DNA of 64,000 bases from an uncultured Pirellulaceae bacterium (GTDB lineage: Bacteria > Planctomycetota > Planctomycetia > Pirellulales > Pirellulaceae). The DNA lies in assembly GCA_937941455.1 (NCBI GenBank), contig CALDHM010000010.1:186001-250000 (forward strand), in the 5' to 3' direction. Positions within the stretch are counted from its first letter, which is position 1. Each line of letters begins with the position of its first letter. A program made the translations under genes and the position numbers. Under the pieces are notes generated by a model. That model made no database searches and was not told the DNA's origin. It saw nothing but the letters and a program-made list of their open reading frames with translations. This document shows positions 13,038 through 37,078 of the stretch, one piece after another.

Positions 13038-14831
13038 CTAATCCAGTTGAGGAGGCGCTTGGGGTTTCGCGGGATCCGGCTCGGGGAGAACGATCAGATC
13101 GGCGCGATTGATGCGTTCCCGCCCGGCCACGGTGAGTACCGCCTCGATGTTGCTCGCTGTTTTTTTGATGCCTCGCAAGCGAAATTCCGCATCGATAAAC
13201 AGCCATCCGGCATCTGCACGCTGGCCATAATCCTTTTCGACTATCTCGTCAGGCAAATCGGAATCAGGAGCCATCCAGGGAACGGCCAACTCGCGAGACG
13301 TTTCGACGATGATGGCTGTCCGATTTTTAGGATCGGTAATCCGATCGAGTGAGGGCGGCTGGTCGCTGTCAGCGTTGTACAGTCTCCCCGGCCCGCGCGA
13401 CAAACGCCATGCCGTCTTGCCTGCTGGATCGAGAGCGGCGAACACCTCGGGGACGTCCTCGGCCACTTCTTGGTTGGTCGGACTATCCCAGGGCTGCAGA
13501 AAATCGATCCGGTCGTACAAATCCTGTCGACCGAGTTGCGGCAAGATGGCGACTCGCCAGCTGAACGGAGGGCCTTTTCCGTTTGGGTCGGGTGGCCCGT
13601 CCGTCGGCAACCGCCCCCGCTCCGCGTGGAAGCGAGCGACCGCGCTGGCGAGCTGCCGCCCGGCCTCGATCCTGCGGCTGAGTGTTGCGATTTGCTGGAG
13701 GTCGCTGACGGCGGTTTGGAGGAAAGGTTTGACTGCCTCGGACCGGCGAATCCGCAATTCGACTTGGTCTGCCGTTTTGGAAACCTCGGCTAGATCGCGC
13801 TGGACGATATCGTCGAACAAGGCCGTCGCTTGCGTGAGCACTTGCGGCTCGTACATCGTCGCGCTATTTCGGCGAGGTGCCAGGCCATTTCCCATGCCAG
13901 CCAGCGAATTTTGAGAAGGTTGCCGATTATCGTTGGCAAAAGCTTCGTTGAGGCTTTGGGCGATTTGGTCGGCGGCCCTTGGGTCTTGCAAGCTGATGGA
14001 AAGTTGTACCATTTCCGATTGCTCCGGGTCGATCGCCAGCGTCGCATGCTTGACGGCCGTGTAGATCTGGAAGGCCTCATCATTGCCGCCACCGAAGGAC
14101 CGCGCCATTTGAGCGATCGTGCTAAAAAATCCGGCAATCGGTTGCGGGTCGAAATAGGCCTGCAGCACGTGCGACGACTTGGTACTCTCCGCCAAGCGTT
14201 GCAGGTTTCCCGTTTCCCGCGGCCGGGTCAGCCGCAACGCCATTTCGCGCGAGGCGATGGCGAGGTGACGGCTATCGATTCGCGCAGCGAACAGACTGTC
14301 ACGTTTCAGGTCCACTAATTCGGAGACATCTCCCCCGCCACCGGACTGGGGGAACAAGGCCTGCCAAGACTCAAGCGGCTCATTCCATTCCAGAACAATG
14401 GCCAGCGGATTCGCGGATGCATCAGTGCCGCCCCCCAAAGCAGAGGTCAGCGACTGATCGACCAAGACCCAGAGCCGCCGGTAATTCGCCAGGTTCGCGG
14501 CGCGATCGCCGACCCAGTTTGCCAGCGCCCGTTGAACCTCCGACAAATCCATCCCCTCCAGCACATTCGATCCAAGCAGTTTGCGAACGTCGACCGAGAC
14601 GGCAAAGAAAAAGTCCTTGTGTAAAAAACCCTCGGCCGCGGCCTCGCCAGAGCTCGCGACGGTGGGGCCTTGCTCGTGAATCGTCGGTTGGTTCCGCTGT
14701 TCAAATGGTAAGGATTTGACTTGGGACGTTTCGCGGCAGCCCACGGTGCAGACGATAGTACACACTCCCAAACCGATAAAATAGATCAGCGTTTTCGTGA
14801 AACACGGCTGACGATTGCTGGGGTAAACCAT
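13038..14831 (-). CDS. DUF1559-like secreted lipoprotein
   Basis: A 597-residue exported protein. The N-terminus ends in a lipobox-like TVGC (Cys32 after 'GVCTIVCTVGC'), so it is probably a lipoprotein. Residues 80-400 have no named motif but contain alternating beta-like stretches ('HLAIASREMALRL', 'ATLAIDPEQSEMVQLSISLQD'). The C-terminal part ('GKGPPFSWRVAILPQLGRQDLYDRIDF', 'PTNQEV', 'DPKNRTAIIVETSRELAVPWMAPDSDL') matches the C-terminal half of the DUF1559 (pseudopilin-like) proteins that are abundant in planctomycetes, though the usual N-terminal pilin-like helix is missing. It stands alone, divergent from the QueC-like gene (133-base gap). Function unknown, probably a structural or surface protein. 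Confidence 0.85.
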   Translation of the reverse strand: MVYPSNRQPCFTKTLIYFIGLGVCTIVCTVGCRETSQVKSLPFEQRNQPTIHEQGPTVASSGEAAAEGFLHKDFFFAVSVDVRKLLGSNVLEGMDLSEVQRALANWVGDRAANLANYRRLWVLVDQSLTSALGGGTDASANPLAIVLEWNEPLESWQALFPQSGGGGDVSELVDLKRDSLFAARIDSRHLAIASREMALRLTRPRETGNLQRLAESTKSSHVLQAYFDPQPIAGFFSTIAQMARSFGGGNDEAFQIYTAVKHATLAIDPEQSEMVQLSISLQDPRAADQIAQSLNEAFANDNRQPSQNSLAGMGNGLAPRRNSATMYEPQVLTQATALFDDIVQRDLAEVSKTADQVELRIRRSEAVKPFLQTAVSDLQQIATLSRRIEAGRQLASAVARFHAERGRLPTDGPPDPNGKGPPFSWRVAILPQLGRQDLYDRIDFLQPWDSPTNQEVAEDVPEVFAALDPAGKTAWRLSRGPGRLYNADSDQPPSLDRITDPKNRTAIIVETSRELAVPWMAPDSDLPDEIVEKDYGQRADAGWLFIDAEFRLRGIKKTASNIEAVLTVAGRERINRADLIVLPEPDPAKPQAPPQLD

Positions 14832-28161: not shown

Positions 28162-31100
28162 ATGAAGCTAACCGACTTGAACCTTAATGCCACCGCGCAG
28201 GAGATGGGAGTTTCGCTCAATCACTTGCACTCCGGACTGAACCTTATTTTCGCGGATCGGCGTGAGATTCTCGAGTCGTTGGGAAATCTGATCGAACATA
28301 CGCTGGCGGCTACCGCGACAGGACGTTACTGGTCGACGGACCTGGGTTGGTTACAGGCCACGAGCGGCCAAGGGAGTTTTCGGTTGCAACGCTCGGTCGA
28401 CACGGTGCGGAGATTGGACGTTCAACGTCTTCCGGGATCGCTCGGCGGCGGCGGCGCGACGGATGTGCACATCAACGCACTGCTGCCAAGCAATGGCGGG
28501 CGGATCCGCTGGAGTGGTATGCATCCAACCAACAGTCTGCTCGAGGCGATTCAAGCGGCCGCTCCCACTTGGTTGGACTATTCTCGCCAACAGCGTTTTC
28601 GGTCCGAACGAGAATACCGGGATTGGAAGTTAGCCGCTGACGGCCGCCTGCAACGCCTCGAGGCCCTGCGCGGCGAACGATCGGCTCTCGAGGCCGAGCG
28701 AAGCAGGCTCCTTGCCGAGATCGACGCGTTGACACGCGACGACGCGAGGCAACGCGAGCGTTGCGATCAGGAAATCGCACGCTTGGATGCGGCGATCGCA
28801 GCTGCCGACAGAGAGGTTCAGCAGCGCCGTCAGACCTTGGCCGAACTCGAGGCAGAAATCTTGCGTCTTCAACGCGAATCGCGGCCGCTGCCGCCCCGAC
28901 CGGCTGTCAAGACGGAATGGTCGCGCGATCTGCTCGCGACGCTGTACGCCCGGATCGATGACCTGGAGGAGCAAGTCGTCCGCTGGACCGAATTGCTGGA
29001 GGATGTTCATGGGGAACGAATTCGTTTGCGCGACGAGATGGTCCGCTGGAATGAATTGACCGTCAAGGATCCTGAACATCCCTACCATCGAGCGCAAGCC
29101 ATCATCTCGAACATCAATGCGACCGTCGACGAAGCCGATCGGACAGCGTTGCAACATGTCGAGGACGCGAGCGTCGAAGCCCGTCAGGCGGCCCGCAAGG
29201 TCAGTGGCCATTGCGACCATATCCACAACCAACTCAATCAACTCTCCGTTGAGTTGGGAGCTCAATTCAAGGAGTTGCGGCACCGCGTGGCCGTGAACGA
29301 ATTGAAACTGCTGCGCGGCTATTACCATCGAATCGGCGACCACCTGCAGCGTTTGCAACAATTGCTACAGGCTGCGATTCAAGCCTTGCGAATTTACGAC
29401 GAGGTCGGGGCTCAAGCCATTGAGGGCCGGCTCCCTGAATTCCTCGCGACGGCACGACAAGTCGGCTTCCTCCAAGCGCGGCGCCAATTCCATGGCCCAG
29501 AACCGGTGATCTTCGCGACCGACACCGTTCCGCAAGACACTTCGCTCGCCGACCAAACGCGGCTACGTTTGGTGCAGGTCACCGGGCAGCGGGACACCTG
29601 CGTTGACGAATTGGAGCGAGCTGTCGCCCTGATCGCCTCGCTGAACGAGGAACGCGAAAAATGGATCGCGCAGCGGCGTCTGCTTGCCGGTGTTAATCCT
29701 GCTCCGCAGCGGCTGCGCCTGGAGCAGATCGCTGGCTTGCTCAGCCGTTTGCTGGACGAAGAGGCCAGCTTACTGCGGCAAATCGAAGTGGATCGGCAAC
29801 AACCCGCATTCGTCCCGAACCCGATCGAGCAGGCCGCTAGTCGCTACCTAACCCAACTGACGGGAACACCGAGCCACTTAACCCTCTGGCGTGGCGAACC
29901 GTCGACGATCGCAGCCCTCGACGCACTCAGCGTCGCGTTCAATCATCAAGAATCGCGACCGGCGAACTTGTTATCGGCCAACGAACAACGTCTAGTTGCT
30001 CTGGCGTTGCAGCTCGCCCTGCTTTCCTTTCAAAACCCGCAGGGATACGAGTGGCCGATCGTCTTGGAACACTGGGCTGAGTATTTGGATGAAGGCCAAG
30101 TCCAACGGATGGTCAAACTGCTCGAGGAACTCGGACAATCGGGGCTGCAATCGCTCCTCCTGTGGGAAGGCGACGGGCGCACCCACTCCTGGCTGCAGAA
30201 CTTCGGCTCGGGAAAATTCGGCGAGTTCCAAATCGCCACCGTCTCGACGACTCGCCGTATCGTGACCTCACCACGCGAGCCAGTTTCTGTCCCGGTTGTT
30301 GCACCACCGATCAGCATCATGCGACCGACGGTTCCCACGAGCATGGATCCGGAGCCTCGGCTGCCCGATTGGACTCACTACAATCTGCAAACAGCCTTCA
30401 CGGCTCCCGAAACACCGCATGTCTACGTTGACCGCGGGATCGAAGTGCCTTCGTTACCTCGCGCGACGGTTGCACACGAGCCGGCAGCAGCCATTTCTGA
30501 ATCGACCTCGCTCGGCGATGTCGATTTGCTGGATCACGTTCACTTGCGGAATCTCGCCCTCTGCGGTATCCACAATTTCGGTCAACTCCTCGAACTCGAC
30601 CCCGAATCCTTGCCAGACTTGTTGCTGAGCAAGGGATTCACGCCGGCTCAAATCGATCGTTGGCAGGCTCAAGCCTGGCTCCTCCTCTGCGTCCCCGGAC
30701 TCGTGTCCAGCGAATCGCGTCTGCTAGTCGCCTGCGGTATTGTTGAACCGGAACAACTCGATGCGACCCAAGCCGACCAGCTACTGGCTCGTATCAATCG
30801 CTACTTGATTAGCCCCGATGGCCAGCGGATGTCCTACGGCGCCGAACGCTTCGACCGCAATCGGATTCAAAGCTGGTACGACGGCCTTCGCTCGACGCGA
30901 TCACGGTGGCGCCGCGAGGGAGGTTACAGCCGACGACTGGGACGCCGTGCGAGTACCGTCCAAGCCAACCCGCGGCGAAATGTTGACGAACGACCAGCCA
31001 GGAATTCGTACACGCCGGGCCGCCATTTTGAGCGCGTGGCCCAGCGAAAATACCAGCCGGGTCATCACTTTTCGAGTTTCCCGCGGGCCTATGTCGAACG

Positions 31101-31764
31101 GACCGTCGACGAGGAATTAGAAGACCAAGACGATACCGACGACATCGTCTCGGCTTTGCTGCCGCAACCCGCCAATGACAGCCAGCCGATCTCGAACTCT
31201 TCAGCATTCGCCCGATCGCGGCCCAGCATCAATGCCGCGCCGCGCGGCCCGCTCGCCAGAAATTCATCCGAGGCAACCGCCGACCTGCGAAAACGGCCAG
31301 AATCATCTAGTGAAACCCTCGCGAATCACAAGTTCTACCTCAATCTCTCCGATCCCGTCGAGGCAGCTCCTTCGATTGGGCCGAAAACGGCTGAACGATT
31401 CATCGCGATTGGCGTGCATACGATTCATGATTTTCTCGCCACGACCGCGGAGTTCATGGCCGAACGGATCGACTTCAAGCGGATCTCGGCCGACGTGATC
31501 CGAGCATGGCAGGCCCAAGCGAGACTTGTCTGTTGCGTGCCCAATTTGCGAGGGCACGACGCCCAGTTGCTGGTCGCCTGCGGCGTGAAGGAGGCCGAGC
31601 AACTCGCTCAAATGAATCCCCGCAAACTGTTCAGCCTCGTGGGGCCGTTTGCGGATACCAAGGAAGGGCTCAAAATCATCCGTTCGGGAAAAAAGCCAGA
31701 CCTCGACGAGGTTACCGATTGGATCGAGTGGGCACATCACACGCGCCCGTTACAAGCGGCCTGA
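28162..31764 (+). CDS. Degenerate SMC/YhaN-like coiled-coil protein with two DUF4332 modules
   Basis: A 1200-residue cytosolic protein. The start ('LNLNATAQEMGVSLNHLHSGLNLIFADRREILESL') has the layout of YhaN/RecF-type ATPases, but where the P-loop G-x-N-x-x-G-K-S/T should be it has ADRREILES (about residues 31-39), so ATP binding is probably lost. Long coiled-coil stretches follow (about 160-250 and 300-560). A head-like part then has 'LLSANEQRLVALALQLALL' (about 603-621), where ABC ATPases have LSxGxxxxLxLALRLAL. 'WPIVLEHWAEYLDEGQ' (about 631-646) stands where Walker B (PLVLDD) and the D-loop would be. The rest is a disordered arginine-rich linker and two DUF4332 helix-hairpin-helix modules (about 788-880 and 1061-1165). 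Such modules bind DNA or protein. Function unknown; a structural chromosome or repair role is a guess. Confidence 0.8.
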   Translation: MKLTDLNLNATAQEMGVSLNHLHSGLNLIFADRREILESLGNLIEHTLAATATGRYWSTDLGWLQATSGQGSFRLQRSVDTVRRLDVQRLPGSLGGGGATDVHINALLPSNGGRIRWSGMHPTNSLLEAIQAAAPTWLDYSRQQRFRSEREYRDWKLAADGRLQRLEALRGERSALEAERSRLLAEIDALTRDDARQRERCDQEIARLDAAIAAADREVQQRRQTLAELEAEILRLQRESRPLPPRPAVKTEWSRDLLATLYARIDDLEEQVVRWTELLEDVHGERIRLRDEMVRWNELTVKDPEHPYHRAQAIISNINATVDEADRTALQHVEDASVEARQAARKVSGHCDHIHNQLNQLSVELGAQFKELRHRVAVNELKLLRGYYHRIGDHLQRLQQLLQAAIQALRIYDEVGAQAIEGRLPEFLATARQVGFLQARRQFHGPEPVIFATDTVPQDTSLADQTRLRLVQVTGQRDTCVDELERAVALIASLNEEREKWIAQRRLLAGVNPAPQRLRLEQIAGLLSRLLDEEASLLRQIEVDRQQPAFVPNPIEQAASRYLTQLTGTPSHLTLWRGEPSTIAALDALSVAFNHQESRPANLLSANEQRLVALALQLALLSFQNPQGYEWPIVLEHWAEYLDEGQVQRMVKLLEELGQSGLQSLLLWEGDGRTHSWLQNFGSGKFGEFQIATVSTTRRIVTSPREPVSVPVVAPPISIMRPTVPTSMDPEPRLPDWTHYNLQTAFTAPETPHVYVDRGIEVPSLPRATVAHEPAAAISESTSLGDVDLLDHVHLRNLALCGIHNFGQLLELDPESLPDLLLSKGFTPAQIDRWQAQAWLLLCVPGLVSSESRLLVACGIVEPEQLDATQADQLLARINRYLISPDGQRMSYGAERFDRNRIQSWYDGLRSTRSRWRREGGYSRRLGRRASTVQANPRRNVDERPARNSYTPGRHFERVAQRKYQPGHHFSSFPRAYVERTVDEELEDQDDTDDIVSALLPQPANDSQPISNSSAFARSRPSINAAPRGPLARNSSEATADLRKRPESSSETLANHKFYLNLSDPVEAAPSIGPKTAERFIAIGVHTIHDFLATTAEFMAERIDFKRISADVIRAWQAQARLVCCVPNLRGHDAQLLVACGVKEAEQLAQMNPRKLFSLVGPFADTKEGLKIIRSGKKPDLDEVTDWIEWAHHTRPLQAA

Positions 31765-31915: not shown

Positions 31916-32773
31916 TTACGGACAGCCGTCGGCGACGAGTAACTCCCCCAGCCCCAATTGCAGATGATCGCCGGAGTAATAGTTCCAACGACGCTCCAAT
32001 CGACTCAAAAAATCGAGATCGTGATCTTGCGACAGCTCCGGCAGCCGCTGCTGCAGATCCATCCGCAGCAGACGCGCCAACACGTTCAAATACCCTCCGC
32101 CGACTTGCCGCACGAAATGGAAACGCGGTGGTGCAACCGCTGCAGGATCGAGCTGTCCAACGAAAACCGTTCCCCGCTTCATCTCGTAAGCGACTCCAGC
32201 TCCGGCTCGCCCGGCCACCAAGATCGTGCCAGCAATCATTTGGAACCCGGCATAATCGCCGGCTTCACCACGCACGATGATCGTCCCCCGCCGCTGCCGC
32301 AACCCTAACCCCTCCCCGGCAGCCCCCCCCACAAAGATCAGGCCCCCTGCCATGCCGCGAACTCCGCCAGAGCCACAACCGCCAGCCCGAACGCCGACCG
32401 ACTGAGAGACCATGATCGTCCCCCCCGTCATTTCACAGCCCAGATCATCGGCCGCTGATCCGTCGATGATCATGGTTCCCCCCGTCAGCTGATAACCTGC
32501 CCGGTGACCCACATTCCCGCAGACGTGGATGACGCCGTCCTTCAGTCCTGTCCCCAGCCCGGTCAACAGCCGCAAATCTCCCTGCCAAGCGGAGCGCAAG
32601 TCGCGGTAGTCGCCGCGAATGTGAAACAAATCGGCGACGTCATGTCGCTCTGAACCGACAGTCACCATCTGTCTGCCGACCTCATCGCTTGTCGTAGCTG
32701 GCGTCCACGATCGGACGAGTTCGCTAACGTCCACGGACGACTGCAAAGGCTGCCGCAAAACGAGTTCGAGCAT
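31916..32773 (-). CDS. fhcC: Formyltransferase/hydrolase complex subunit C (FwdC/FhcC family)
   Basis: Belongs to the GXGXG-repeat family of formylmethanofuran dehydrogenase subunit C. In bacteria with the tetrahydromethanopterin pathway this subunit sits in the Fhc complex that releases formate from formyl-H4MPT. Planctomycetes are among the bacteria carrying this pathway. The parallel beta-helix repeats are plain: 'AGYQLTGGTMIIDGSAADDLGCEMTGGTIMVSQSVG', 'GGLIFVGGAAGEGLGLRQRRGTIIVRGEAGDYAGFQMIAGTILVAGRAG'. Length 285 is normal. It starts 40 bases after the RDD kinase gene on the same strand, so it may be its operon partner. Genes for the other Fhc subunits (A, B, D) are not in the window, which is unusual. 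Confidence 0.9.
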   Translation of the reverse strand: MLELVLRQPLQSSVDVSELVRSWTPATTSDEVGRQMVTVGSERHDVADLFHIRGDYRDLRSAWQGDLRLLTGLGTGLKDGVIHVCGNVGHRAGYQLTGGTMIIDGSAADDLGCEMTGGTIMVSQSVGVRAGGCGSGGVRGMAGGLIFVGGAAGEGLGLRQRRGTIIVRGEAGDYAGFQMIAGTILVAGRAGAGVAYEMKRGTVFVGQLDPAAVAPPRFHFVRQVGGGYLNVLARLLRMDLQQRLPELSQDHDLDFLSRLERRWNYYSGDHLQLGLGELLVADGCP

Positions 32774-32813: not shown

Positions 32814-35744
32814 TCAGCGAGGAACTAATTGCGTGCCGAGAATCCAATCGGGAATTCCCCGCCGCGGCGAGTAGATCGCGAAGGCTGCTCCGACCAAGGT
32901 AACGAAAGTACCGACGATCACGACGGCAATCATCACCAGAACTTGAGTCGTTTCCTTGTCCGAAAGCCCGTTGACGTCGGCGCTATCCCCGGAAGCCGCT
33001 GTTTCACTTGCCGCTGGCGTCATGGAATCAGCAGCTGCTGACATGGCCACACTCTGCCGTTGTGGCCCCTGCAACCGATCGTTACCGAGCTCGAAGAAGA
33101 AGGTCGAGGCGACGGCCGTGGTACAAATTCCCATCCAACTCAAGACGTTGCGTAGCCCGCATTGCGATGCGGAGGCCAGTTCCCCCTTGTTTCCGCGGAT
33201 TTCAACCCCCATCAGCTTAAATGCGGGCCCACCGCGGGTTACTCCGCCGATGATGTAAATACCTAGAAGGGCAACCAACCAGCACCACATCGGCTTCCAT
33301 AACGGAAAATACCCGATGTAAGACAAAACAAACCAACTCAACAGCGAGGTCAACCCCGCGATCACCGTCCACTCGATCGCCGTGGAGAAGGCCAAGGCTC
33401 CCAAACGCGAGTCCCAAGTCATTTCCGATACGCGGCGATTTTCCTGGTCGAGCCGGTCGCGCAACCATTTCAGTGTTTCCATGCTGTTATCGCGGACGCG
33501 AAACTCGTTCACCATTTCGTTCGCCGTATTGGGCATCAACAGGTGGACATAGGCCCAGTCCAGTACATCGCGCAGGAATTTCATGCTGCGGGTCAGGTCG
33601 TCTTGATCAGGCTGTTTGGATACCGTGATGAACCGAGTCGGATCGAAAACGTTGACTGGCAAGTCGATCAATCGCCCGCGCCCTTCGCGGGTCACCATGA
33701 AATTGTCGAACGTCAGTTGCTTGGGCAGCGTTTTATCCTGCAGCGTTGCCAAGATCTCACGAACCAAATCGAAGATCGCCGACTTGATCATCCCCCAACT
33801 CAAATTGGTCACACGATTGGTCAGGTAGGAAAACGGGACGCCGCCAAAACTCTCGAAAGCGTCCCACCGCATGTCACCATCATTCCCACCTTGCAACCAG
33901 CGGCTGCGCGTCGGGCGATTGACTTGAAAGCCGACGATATTGGACGCCGAGTGTTCGCGACTGCAAAACACCAGCGCCCGGCGGTCGAGTACTTCATCAT
34001 GCCCCAAGAAAATTCCCGTGCCATCGCGATTGGTCGGCAACCGGCCGATGATCTTGAATCGCCCGAGGAAATACGGCTCGGCCAGCGTCTCAAAAGGCAG
34101 CCCCTTGATCGCGGGATGATATTGTTTGCGGGCGATCGGCAAAGCGATCGTTTGCGTGTCGCTCAACCACTCATGGATTCCACGCAGCTTGTTCGACTCC
34201 CGCATCGTCAGCATGCCGATCAGACCCACCAGGGCCAGCGGCAAGATATTGAAGATCCACACTTGAAATTCGTAGTCATCGATGTGGAACTCCTGCGGCA
34301 CGGTCCAGAAATGGCTCGACAGCATCGACACCAGGGGCAAACCGAAGGCGCCGGGAATCACAATGGCTCGCAGCAACCCGCGCCACAGGCCGGGATGTTC
34401 TCCTTGCAAATTGACCACGCGGAGCGACATCAGCCATTTTCCCGGCGTGCGACCCCAAAGCCCGTCCCCGACAGCAAACAATCCCAGCGAGGCTAGCCAA
34501 CCCACCAGATTCTGCCACATGGTCAAGATCGCCAAGTGTCGCATGAGCTGATCGCCCTTCTCCGAGCTTCCCTGCATATTCCCCAAGGTCACCCACAGCA
34601 GGGCGATCAGCAACACGAGGGTCTGTACGACGACCTGCACTGCACCGAAATCGATCATGAACGCCGCCACGCGACGGCCGATTTCGGCTAATGAGGTGCC
34701 CCGCGATGCAAACGGCAGCAAGGCCATCCGCATCGTATCCATGCTTGGGTAGCGGTCCTCGGGACGCTTCTCCATCGCTCGCAACACGATTTCCTCGAGT
34801 TGCTTGGGGACGTTGGGCGACAACTTGCGCAACGGCGGCGGAGGATCAGACACGATTTGTGCAGCGACGGCAATCGAATCACCCGTAAACGGCGGCCGTC
34901 CAGCCAACAACGTGTACAACGTCGCCCCCAGTGAATAAATGTCGGTTCGCTCATCGACTCGCTCCCCGCGAATCTGCTCGGGGGAGGCGAAGCACGGCGT
35001 GCCCATGAACGAACCCATTTGCGTCGTTTCGACATCTCCCAGCAGACTTTTAGATAGACCGAAATCACCGATCTTGACCCGCCCACCAGGCTCGACAAAG
35101 CAATTCGCAGGTTTCACGTCCCGATGCACCACGCCCAGTTCATGAGCCGCAGCCAAGCCATCGATGATATCCAGCGTCACATCCACCGCACGCTGGATCG
35201 TCAGCTTGCCCGCTTCGTTCAACTCATCCTTCAGCGTTCGGCCGGGCATGAGCTCCATCACGATGTAAGGGCGTTGCCGGTCGAATCCGGCCTCGTAGAC
35301 GAACGTCGAACGGGGGTGCGAGATGCGAGCTGCCAAGCGGCCTTCTTGCAGGAACCGCTGCAACGCCTCAGGCTCTCGATGCGAAAGCGGATCGGACAGA
35401 ATCTTGAGGGCGACCATCCGGCCCAATTGTTGGTCGCGGGCCTCGAACACCCGGCCCATTCCGCCACTGCCGATTTCACGAATGATGTCGTAACCGGTGA
35501 TCGTCGGCAATTCGGTATCGGCCACATAGGCAATGCCGCGCGGAGGAATCGTCGTATCGGCGTCCACCTCGCTGCGGTCCGGTCGGTTCGGTGGCCCGGG
35601 CAACCCCAAGGGTTCGCCGCAGTGGCGGCACAGCCCCGGATTCGCTCCCGGCGATTCCGCCAGAATTCCGCACTGGGAACATTTGAATTGCAAAACGTCG
35701 TTCACTCGCTGCGACACGATGAAGTACCCTAGCACCGTCGGCAA
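32814..35744 (-). CDS. Serine/threonine kinase with zinc ribbon, two RDD domains and an internal pseudokinase
   Basis: A 976-residue membrane kinase. A zinc ribbon comes first (Cys22, Cys25, Cys39, Cys42). The kinase domain spans about 85-350 with Gly-loop GSGGMG, Lys114 (ALKI), the catalytic loop HRDVKPAN (Asp209) and DFG (Asp227), so it should be active. An RDD membrane domain follows (about 350-540; 'RRVAAFMIDFG', 'GRTPGKWLMSLRVV'). Next is a kinase-like segment without key residues (about 560-760; 'FKIIGRLPTNRDGTGIFLGHD', then 'LPKQLTFDNFMVTREGRGRLIDL' where HRDxKPxN and DFG would lie). A second RDD domain ends the protein (about 790-890, 'TRGGPAFKLMGVEI') with two more hydrophobic segments. 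The start is TTG, uncertain; GTG codons at residues 4, 10 and 14 also fit. fhcC follows 40 bases downstream; the FHA-pseudokinase gene is divergent. Confidence 0.9.
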   Translation of the reverse strand: MPTVLGYFIVSQRVNDVLQFKCSQCGILAESPGANPGLCRHCGEPLGLPGPPNRPDRSEVDADTTIPPRGIAYVADTELPTITGYDIIREIGSGGMGRVFEARDQQLGRMVALKILSDPLSHREPEALQRFLQEGRLAARISHPRSTFVYEAGFDRQRPYIVMELMPGRTLKDELNEAGKLTIQRAVDVTLDIIDGLAAAHELGVVHRDVKPANCFVEPGGRVKIGDFGLSKSLLGDVETTQMGSFMGTPCFASPEQIRGERVDERTDIYSLGATLYTLLAGRPPFTGDSIAVAAQIVSDPPPPLRKLSPNVPKQLEEIVLRAMEKRPEDRYPSMDTMRMALLPFASRGTSLAEIGRRVAAFMIDFGAVQVVVQTLVLLIALLWVTLGNMQGSSEKGDQLMRHLAILTMWQNLVGWLASLGLFAVGDGLWGRTPGKWLMSLRVVNLQGEHPGLWRGLLRAIVIPGAFGLPLVSMLSSHFWTVPQEFHIDDYEFQVWIFNILPLALVGLIGMLTMRESNKLRGIHEWLSDTQTIALPIARKQYHPAIKGLPFETLAEPYFLGRFKIIGRLPTNRDGTGIFLGHDEVLDRRALVFCSREHSASNIVGFQVNRPTRSRWLQGGNDGDMRWDAFESFGGVPFSYLTNRVTNLSWGMIKSAIFDLVREILATLQDKTLPKQLTFDNFMVTREGRGRLIDLPVNVFDPTRFITVSKQPDQDDLTRSMKFLRDVLDWAYVHLLMPNTANEMVNEFRVRDNSMETLKWLRDRLDQENRRVSEMTWDSRLGALAFSTAIEWTVIAGLTSLLSWFVLSYIGYFPLWKPMWCWLVALLGIYIIGGVTRGGPAFKLMGVEIRGNKGELASASQCGLRNVLSWMGICTTAVASTFFFELGNDRLQGPQRQSVAMSAAADSMTPAASETAASGDSADVNGLSDKETTQVLVMIAVVIVGTFVTLVGAAFAIYSPRRGIPDWILGTQLVPR

Positions 35745-35872
35745 CGCCCCGCGAGTGTTTTCGCTGGCTCAGCCGATTTATCGATTCTAAATCGAGTCAA
35801 GTAGAAAAATCCCCCGCAGCTGTTATCTTAGTGGAAAACCGCCATCCGAGAAATCGTGAGGAATCGCGCATC

Positions 35873-37078
35873 ATGCTGCTTACGCTGAAGGTTCTACAAG
35901 GCCCCGACAAAAACAAGGAATGCCAAATCAAGGAAGGGGATTGCTTGATCGTCGGCCGCGGGGAAAAAAGCGATTTTCGCCTGTCCGATCCGGCCACATC
36001 GCGTGTTCACTTCGAACTCAGCTGCCAGGACGCTGCTGTTACCCTCCGCGATCTCGGCAGCTCGAGCGGCACGCAGATCGATGGCGCACCCGTCCACGTC
36101 GCCCAAGTTCCGATCGGTGGCAAGATTCAGGTGGGCGACACGATTCTGACGCTGGTGGCTCAAGGCGACAGCGAGTCCACCAAATTCGTCGGCAGCATGG
36201 CCGGCGAAAAAACACTCGATGACCTTGTCGGCTCGCGGATCGCCCATTACCGGCTGGATGAGGTCATTGGGCGCGGCGCCAGCGGCGTCGTCTTCCGGGC
36301 CTTCGATGAGGAAAAACAACGAGTGGCCGCCATGAAAGTCCTCACGCCGCAGCATTCTCGGCTCCCCCAGCAGCGAGAACGCTTCGTTCGAGCCATGAAG
36401 ACGATGATCCCCATCCGCTGCGAGAACATCGTTAGAATCTTCAATGCGGGAATCACCGGCCCCTATCTCTGGACCGCTATGGAGTATATCGAGGGCGAAA
36501 ATTTGGCGCAGCTGATCCAGAGAATCGGCATCGAAGGGATGCTGGATTGGCGTAAGGTTTGGAAGGTTGCCAAGGACATCGGCAACGCACTCCATACGGC
36601 TCACCAGCACAACATCGTCCACCGAAATGTCACCCCGACGAATATCTTGCGACGGTCCGCCGATCAGAAATGTTTGCTGGGCGATTTGATGCTCGCCAAG
36701 GCTCTGGAGGGTGAGCTCGCCGTGCAAATCACGCAACCCGGGCAGTTGATCGGCGAGATCGAATACCTGGCACCAGAACGGACGATGGCCGAAGGGGTCA
36801 TCGACATTCGTTCCGACCTGTACGGCTTGGGCGCCACTTGTTATGCCCTGCTCACCGGACATTCACCCGCCGAGGGGAAAAACTTGACCGAAATCTTGCA
36901 AAGGATTCGCCGTGACATCCCCCGGCCTCCCCGCGAATTCCAGCTGGCCGTCAACGAGTGGTTCCAAGACCTGATCGTGATGCGACTGCTCGCGAAGAAT
37001 CCTGCAGAGCGATTCCAAACCCCCGAGGCCCTGCTGGAAGAACTCGATCGCATCGGACGCTACAACTCTTTGGTGTAA
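35873..37078 (+). CDS. FHA domain protein fused to a probable pseudokinase
   Basis: A 401-residue protein; I start it at MLLTLKVLQG (35873), with GAGGAA about nine bases upstream. An FHA domain occupies about residues 20-95 ('LIVGRGEKSDFRLSDPATSRVHFEL', 'LRDLGSSSGTQIDG'), which binds phosphothreonine peptides. A Ser/Thr kinase-like domain follows: Gly-loop GRGASG and Lys155 in AAMKVL are kept. The catalytic loop reads HRNVTPTN (250-257) instead of HRDxKPxN, so the catalytic aspartate is Asn and the lysine is Thr. DFG reads DLM, keeping only the metal-binding Asp. It is therefore likely inactive and a reader or scaffold. The active RDD kinase is divergent from it, 128 bases away, making a regulator pair plausible (inference). 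Confidence 0.88.
   Translation: MLLTLKVLQGPDKNKECQIKEGDCLIVGRGEKSDFRLSDPATSRVHFELSCQDAAVTLRDLGSSSGTQIDGAPVHVAQVPIGGKIQVGDTILTLVAQGDSESTKFVGSMAGEKTLDDLVGSRIAHYRLDEVIGRGASGVVFRAFDEEKQRVAAMKVLTPQHSRLPQQRERFVRAMKTMIPIRCENIVRIFNAGITGPYLWTAMEYIEGENLAQLIQRIGIEGMLDWRKVWKVAKDIGNALHTAHQHNIVHRNVTPTNILRRSADQKCLLGDLMLAKALEGELAVQITQPGQLIGEIEYLAPERTMAEGVIDIRSDLYGLGATCYALLTGHSPAEGKNLTEILQRIRRDIPRPPREFQLAVNEWFQDLIVMRLLAKNPAERFQTPEALLEELDRIGRYNSLV

Follow-up and report, generated by a model that had tools for sequence, protein, structure and literature searches.

ATP-driven head engagement is considered central to SMC and Rad50 proteins. What can such a protein still do once its ATPase sites are gone? This question is raised by a gene in the 64,000-nucleotide stretch of DNA analyzed here (the window), which covers positions 186,001 to 250,000 of contig CALDHM010000010.1 from an uncultured Pirellulaceae bacterium (GCA_937941455.1). 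The gene encodes a 1200-residue protein with a YhaN/Rad50-type layout and two C-terminal DUF4332 domains (Table 1), and a preliminary description had taken it for a pseudo-ATPase DNA-binding scaffold. Our analysis indicates that the ATPase chemistry has very probably been lost from this protein. With modest confidence, we favor the reading that it is a Rad50/YhaN-type coiled-coil protein turned into an ATP-independent DNA tether or scaffold with helix-hairpin-helix (HhH) tails. The YhaN/SMC-type head without recognizable ATPase motifs and the two DUF4332 units of the preliminary description stood; it had missed the relatives with intact motifs beside an altered YhaO-type gene and the repeated loss of those motifs.

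The open reading frame (ORF) is uninterrupted over its 1200 codons, and GGAG is found at −10 to −7 from its ATG. At the positions aligned with the ATPase sites of relatives, Walker A, the signature, and Walker B all fall outside the patterns by which they were judged (Table 1); the missing P-loop and a Walker B that reads IVLEHW had both been noted before. Profiles built without the window's clade recognized the C-terminal lobe (C-lobe) of the head with 61.3 bits (best of 999 shuffles, 9.3) and the N-terminal lobe (N-lobe) with 26.2 bits (best of 999 shuffles, 8.6). Profiles of intact members and the paralog only gave the C-lobe 48.9 bits (best of 999 shuffles, 8.2). These scores indicate that the window head shares descent with YhaN-like heads. 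A Pfam scan of the window protein yielded no head domain above the cut-off; the matches above it were the two DUF4332 domains and a short Cdd1/HhH-type match at the same place. AAA_27 (the YhaN family) was absent among its Pfam matches up to E 1, and phmmer found no match among PDB sequences.

The AlphaFold2 model of the protein has a mean predicted local distance difference test score (pLDDT) of 76.6 and a predicted template modeling score of 0.39. Its confidence is fair to good in the lobes and the coil, with pLDDT blocks mostly of 80–92 in the head core; weaker stretches lie at residues 91–140 (pLDDT 54–74), and confidence is low at residues 694–773 and 928–1052. The closest folds of the predicted head are those of Rad50, SMC, and cohesin heads, and the model matches P. 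furiosus Rad50 (4ncj_D; Z 18.8, 264 residues, 3.9 Å, 17% identity), with the reservation that intact relatives in the AlphaFold alignment may pull the window head toward the standard fold. The protein is thus predicted to have an ABC-type Rad50/SMC head with a long helical coil between its lobes, in keeping with the SMC-like layout first proposed.

The C-terminal part of the protein may bind DNA. The first half of the second DUF4332 resembles the HhH domains of RAD51/RadA, Y-family polymerases, and NusA; these structural matches cover only residues 13–81 of the DUF4332 model, so the fold of its second half is barely probed. Foldseek alone gave no match with E below 0.001 for the model of the second DUF4332, and the best PDB match of the DUF4332 profile was DNA polymerase IV (0.003). 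The arginine-rich linker of the preliminary description is evident from the 24 Arg and 2 Lys among the 141 residues between the two units (net charge +8). The domain is under constraint, as judged from the second copy in the window and in L067, a locus of the same genus (81% identity; ratio of nonsynonymous to synonymous substitutions [dN/dS] 0.055, with dS 2.5, near saturation). Apart from the window protein, no DUF4332 protein turned up in the source genome (4.04 Mb, 96% complete). Elsewhere, the domain also stands alone in ORFs of 137–194 amino acids and occurs in ORFs of 500–750 amino acids and in distant control genomes. At L046, L048, and L061, DUF4332 is C-terminal in open frames of 697–749 amino acids, the unrelated N-terminal region of which has a THHK/THHR stretch and presumably resembles zinc-dependent phospholipase C. 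Among the open-licence papers searched, one contained the term DUF4332, in a figure legend.

Relatives of the window protein are widespread. Matches to it were found in 32 of 60 related genomes, many through DUF4332 alone, and within the same family at least 42 of 60 genomes encode an open frame of 840 amino acids or longer with DUF4332 matched in its C-terminal part (counted by hand among the matches listed). Excluding truncated or split genes and DUF4332 on another kind of protein, we assembled 86 full-length members with N-lobe, C-lobe, and DUF4332 (67 from 80 labeled loci and 19 from other regions, window included), and the domain order that the preliminary description proposed to look for in planctomycetes is found repeatedly. 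A full-length relative in the same genus as the window is 58% identical. On the strength of these relatives, an artifact or an isolated degeneration was rejected.

The ATPase motifs have a patchy distribution among the 86 members. The Walker A core GK[ST] is present in 53 (the lysine alone in 58), the Walker B D[DE] in 35, and the signature S.G in 17; 11 members have all three and 23, including the window protein, have none. AAA_27 was above the cut-off in seven of the eight scanned relatives with Walker A. Intermediate types are found. The Rhodopirellula/Stieleria type keeps Walker A and has a LETH-like Walker B, a Pirellula type has lost Walker A and partly keeps Walker B, and the window clade has lost both. 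L036 falls in the window's group on the DUF4332 tree and has both motifs; its position is unsure, since the head tree, with its many long branches, places it differently. Parsimony on a tree of DUF4332 only, with head columns unused, gave 11 changes for Walker A, 17 for Walker B, and 7 for the signature. Counted as losses from an intact ancestor, the full trees gave 13–14 for Walker A and 17–18 for Walker B. Collapsing branches with support under 80 left 11 (head tree) or 10 (DUF4332 tree) Walker A losses and 16 or 13 Walker B losses; collapsing those under 95 left at least 8 or at least 7 for Walker A and 10 or 12 for Walker B, all rough counts, as we chose the intact clade that served as root of the DUF4332 tree and re-rooting can shift support labels. 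Walker A thus appears to have been lost repeatedly, at least seven times even with weak branches collapsed. As a separate observation, L049 has three DUF4332 profile matches and a long insertion ahead of the P-loop site, with the P-loop lost.

Most of the intact members have a distinctive neighboring gene. Ten labeled loci, all with Walker A and Walker B, have a same-strand ORF of 378–443 codons (stop to stop) 45–105 bases upstream, and L097 is an eleventh locus with such a YhaO homolog; all 11 lie beside a head with both motifs. The relationship is shown by blastp with the YhaO of the source genome (1.8e-22 for L091, 8e-18 for L072, and 4.8e-8 to 7.1e-5 for six others); L074 (only 0.36) and L107 (nothing below 1) were grouped through a profile containing them. 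No Pfam match was found in the four partner proteins scanned. All 24 aligned partners (10 of this family and 14 of another order) depart from the canonical form in metallophosphoesterase motifs I, III, and V, although the most divergent sequences could be aligned only with uncertainty at motifs III and V. Of the 24, L163 alone retains the GD of motif II. The partner was found in none of 51 other labeled loci with at least 1.5 kb upstream, nor in the fetched flanks of the unlabeled members; the upstream region is too short to judge in L079, L086, L100, and L144, as well as in L073 of the intact group. No partner lies within positions 14001–48000 of the window, and the partner query matched only two genes in the whole source genome, those of the canonical YhaO and of the YhaO-like protein in a second YhaO/YhaN-like pair (P2).

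The source genome encodes both a canonical YhaO-YhaN pair and P2, the latter on the window's contig (L150:1933-6644, minus strand). The partner query matched 59 of the 60 family genomes (canonical YhaO included), 54 of them below 1e-30, and in eight fetched regions, that of the window's own genome included, the strong match was the first gene of P2. In the source genome, the P2 YhaO-like protein keeps DFH and GD, and the motifs of the SMC-like protein are intact. Altered third and fifth phosphoesterase motifs in the former and a strongly hydrophobic stretch in the latter were seen in all eight regions. P2 scores closer to the DUF4332 family than the canonical YhaO-YhaN pair does.

Rooted on eight P2 heads, the head tree places 12 members on one side (weak support, 83/47) and 74 on the other (96/95); all three motifs are present in 11 of the 12 and in none of the 74. 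In a class-wide search, DUF4332 was found in 58 of 148 genomes, and 20 of the loci with long ORFs were fetched, 16 from another order (f22) and four from the window's order (f7). The f22 loci have Walker A in 16, Walker B in 15, and the signature in 15 of the 16, with a YhaO-like neighbor in 14 (exceptions, L166 and L167). Among the f7 loci, none of the four has the neighbor or all three motifs, and one has Walker A. A quick class-wide head tree has basal groups of 6 and 22 members, with 78 the rest (89 for each larger group, a single support value). The 28 basal members have Walker A in 28, Walker B in 27, and the signature in 26 cases, and a YhaO/Mre11-type homolog directly upstream in 24. 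Among the other 78, Walker A is kept in 42, Walker B in 25, the signature in 6, and all three in none, and the YhaO-like neighbor is absent wherever flanks could be checked. These patterns suggest that the YhaO-like subunit decayed and was then lost, and that the ATPase motifs may have eroded later.

Compared with YhaN/YhaO, the window protein has a similar arrangement of lobes and coil, and its relatives share AAA_27 matches and, where intact, the upstream YhaO-type gene; it differs in having two DUF4332 domains and in lacking the three ATPase motifs, an AAA_27 match, and an adjacent partner, and the partner of its relatives differs in its altered metal motifs. The predicted head fold (Z 18.8) and the two-gene arrangement in relatives also resemble Rad50/SbcC-Mre11/SbcD, whereas the window protein has no PDB sequence match, no Walker motifs, and an HhH-type tail, with the partner altered or absent. 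The domain DUF4332 (PF14229), which elsewhere is also found as a stand-alone unit, is present here in two copies above the cut-off. No description of this family was recognized in the open-licence papers searched.

These findings may be explained as follows. The ancestor would have been a YhaN/Rad50-type ATPase working with a YhaO/Mre11-type partner. In planctomycetes, the YhaN-like subunit would have come to bear two C-terminal DUF4332 (HhH) domains, and the metal-binding motifs of the partner would have changed beyond the canonical form. In one large branch, which has no adjacent partner gene, the ATPase motifs would have eroded over and over. The window protein would be a far-gone case that dimerizes via its coil, grips DNA by its HhH tails and Arg-rich linker, and serves as a DNA tether or scaffold independently of ATP. 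The dead ATPase in this account is well supported by sequence; DNA binding would follow from the tail, and for DNA tethering the odds seem to us about even. We propose more tentatively, as a scenario somewhat short of probable, that a planctomycete Mre11-Rad50-like pair had a nuclease-type subunit that was already dead and a mere partner of the ATPase, and that once this partner was gone, ATP-free DNA scaffolds with HhH tails arose repeatedly and independently.

Several observations weigh against this account. The N-lobe was not recognized by profiles of intact members and the paralog only (5.7 bits; best shuffle, 10.2), and alone it is unrecognizable at that distance. The AlphaFold alignment held intact relatives, so the model is no independent proof for the window sequence. 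The net charge of DUF4332 is zero or negative (−5 and −1 for the window units), and the Z values of the HhH matches (7.6–9.6 over about 60 residues) fall in a range where no more than a shared arrangement may be indicated. All three motifs are also present in L077, L166, and L167, which lack a neighboring partner, and the tie between the partner and the ATPase motifs rests on few independent events. Finally, a general rule that lost motifs imply a relaxed head was rejected, as motif loss did not predict the head rate (rho 0.02, p 0.92, 25 sister pairs).

Rates of evolution bear on what the head still does. Between the window protein and L067, identity is 42% in the head (N-lobe, residues 1–110, 47%; C-lobe, 40%), 41% in the linker, 62% in the coil, and 84% in DUF4332, and the head/DUF4332 rate ratio of this pair (5.56) is the highest among 25 sister pairs (0.42–2.73 in the other 24). 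Such a head could be a non-functional relic in the window lineage, with only the coil and the DUF4332 tail mattering. We regard this as unlikely: the window, L067, and L032 all retain a full-length head free of stops, and the model of the window head has fair confidence in most of the core. Synonymous sites are saturated in the codon comparison of the window pair, which precludes a clean test of neutrality. Alternatively, the dead head may pair with an active one, that of the canonical YhaN or the P2 SMC-like protein, as in ABC dimers with one degenerate site, and the complex would still use ATP. Both pairs are encoded in the source genome, and, of the five sister pairs in which both sides have lost all motifs, three have a head that is better conserved than DUF4332 (ratios 0.42, 0.55, and 0.60). 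However, neither pair adjoins the window gene, and the head is fast in the remaining two (2.73 for L093/L042, in addition to the window pair), which a conserved dimer interface would resist; we consider such pairing quite unlikely. The spread of these ratios implies that dead heads can be fast or conserved; of eleven pairs compared by codons, three closely related ones in which Walker A is lost (L143/L144, L088/L096, and L086/L094) have an N-lobe dN/dS of 0.03–0.12. Because the window head evolves fast, the term scaffold in the favored reading may suit the coil and the tail more than the head.

Weak hydrolysis in a Rad50-like protein has a precedent in Lamassu LmuB: for its Vibrio form, little or no hydrolysis has been suggested (PMC10586767). 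The change described in that protein is a single Glu-to-Gln substitution, whereas all three motifs are gone in the window protein. The window protein could also be an anti-phage or anti-plasmid sensor of this kind, and the motif-intact relative L091 matches a PADLOC LmuB profile (3.4e-18), but the window protein does so only at 0.0033 and over coil residues 166–410, not the head. In addition, the scanned neighbors are GlgC-like, GXGXG, FHA-kinase, and M24 peptidase proteins (Pfam scans), and the family is widespread rather than sporadic. With the LmuB match confined to the coil, the defense reading was set aside as very improbable. Even less credible is a decaying pseudogene or an annotation artifact, which the three lost motifs and the fast head might suggest, given 1200 uninterrupted codons, the 58% identical relative, and the strongly conserved DUF4332.

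Table 1. Features of the DUF4332 gene and its product, in window coordinates.
Feature	Position	Strand	Basis
ORF, 1200 amino acids: decayed YhaN/Rad50-type head, helical coil region, two DUF4332	28162..31764	+	ATG start
Degenerate Walker A site, residues 31-38, ADRREILE (relatives e.g. GPNGSGKT)	28252..28275	+	Alignment with relatives
Long helices, presumed coiled coil, residues 149-545	28606..29796	+	AlphaFold2 model; coiled-coil nature inferred
Head C-lobe, residues 554-698	29821..30255	+	Profile scores and predicted model
Degenerate signature, residues 604-611, LSANEQRL (relatives e.g. LSRGTLDQ)	29971..29994	+	Alignment with relatives
Degenerate Walker B, residues 631-638, WPIVLEHW (relatives e.g. 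LPLVLDDV)	30052..30075	+	Alignment with relatives
First DUF4332 (PF14229)	30544..30870	+	Pfam, 43.6 bits, cut-off 23.2
Low-confidence Arg-rich linker, residues 928-1052	30943..31317	+	Predicted model and composition
Second DUF4332 (PF14229)	31369..31737	+	Pfam, 74.8 bits, cut-off 23.2; residues 1048-1200 modeled at pLDDT 94.6

Downstream of the gene, a stand-alone GXGXG-repeat protein (PF01493) is encoded at 31916-32773 on the minus strand, followed at 32814-37078 by two divergent neighbors, a 976-amino-acid ORF on the minus strand, with what we take to be protein-kinase-like motifs, and an FHA-plus-kinase ORF on the plus strand (Pfam). Close matches to both lie downstream in L067 in the same order. 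The neighborhood was rejected as a clue to function, as strong neighbor matches occur only in that same-genus locus and other loci have weak kinase-type matches only. Other neighbors of family genes recur inside single sub-lineages (up to nine loci). At L112 (9475-9843, plus strand), and likewise at L116, L123, and L140, the family gene is followed by an ORF of about 120 codons, the C-terminal part of which presumably resembles the RNA polymerase alpha C-terminal domain.

The chromosomes of planctomycetes are described as unusual, and the family described here is a widespread candidate DNA-associated protein in these bacteria. It includes graded intermediates, with Walker A kept and Walker B lost, Walker A lost and Walker B kept, or all motifs lost, together with a near-intact sister group. 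Repeated loss and such intermediates allow asking which functions outlive ATP and what keeps an ATPase under selection, for which the partner subunit is a candidate. If the more tentative scenario of a pair with a dead nuclease-type subunit is true, the family would form a natural series of SMC-like proteins that are giving up ATP.

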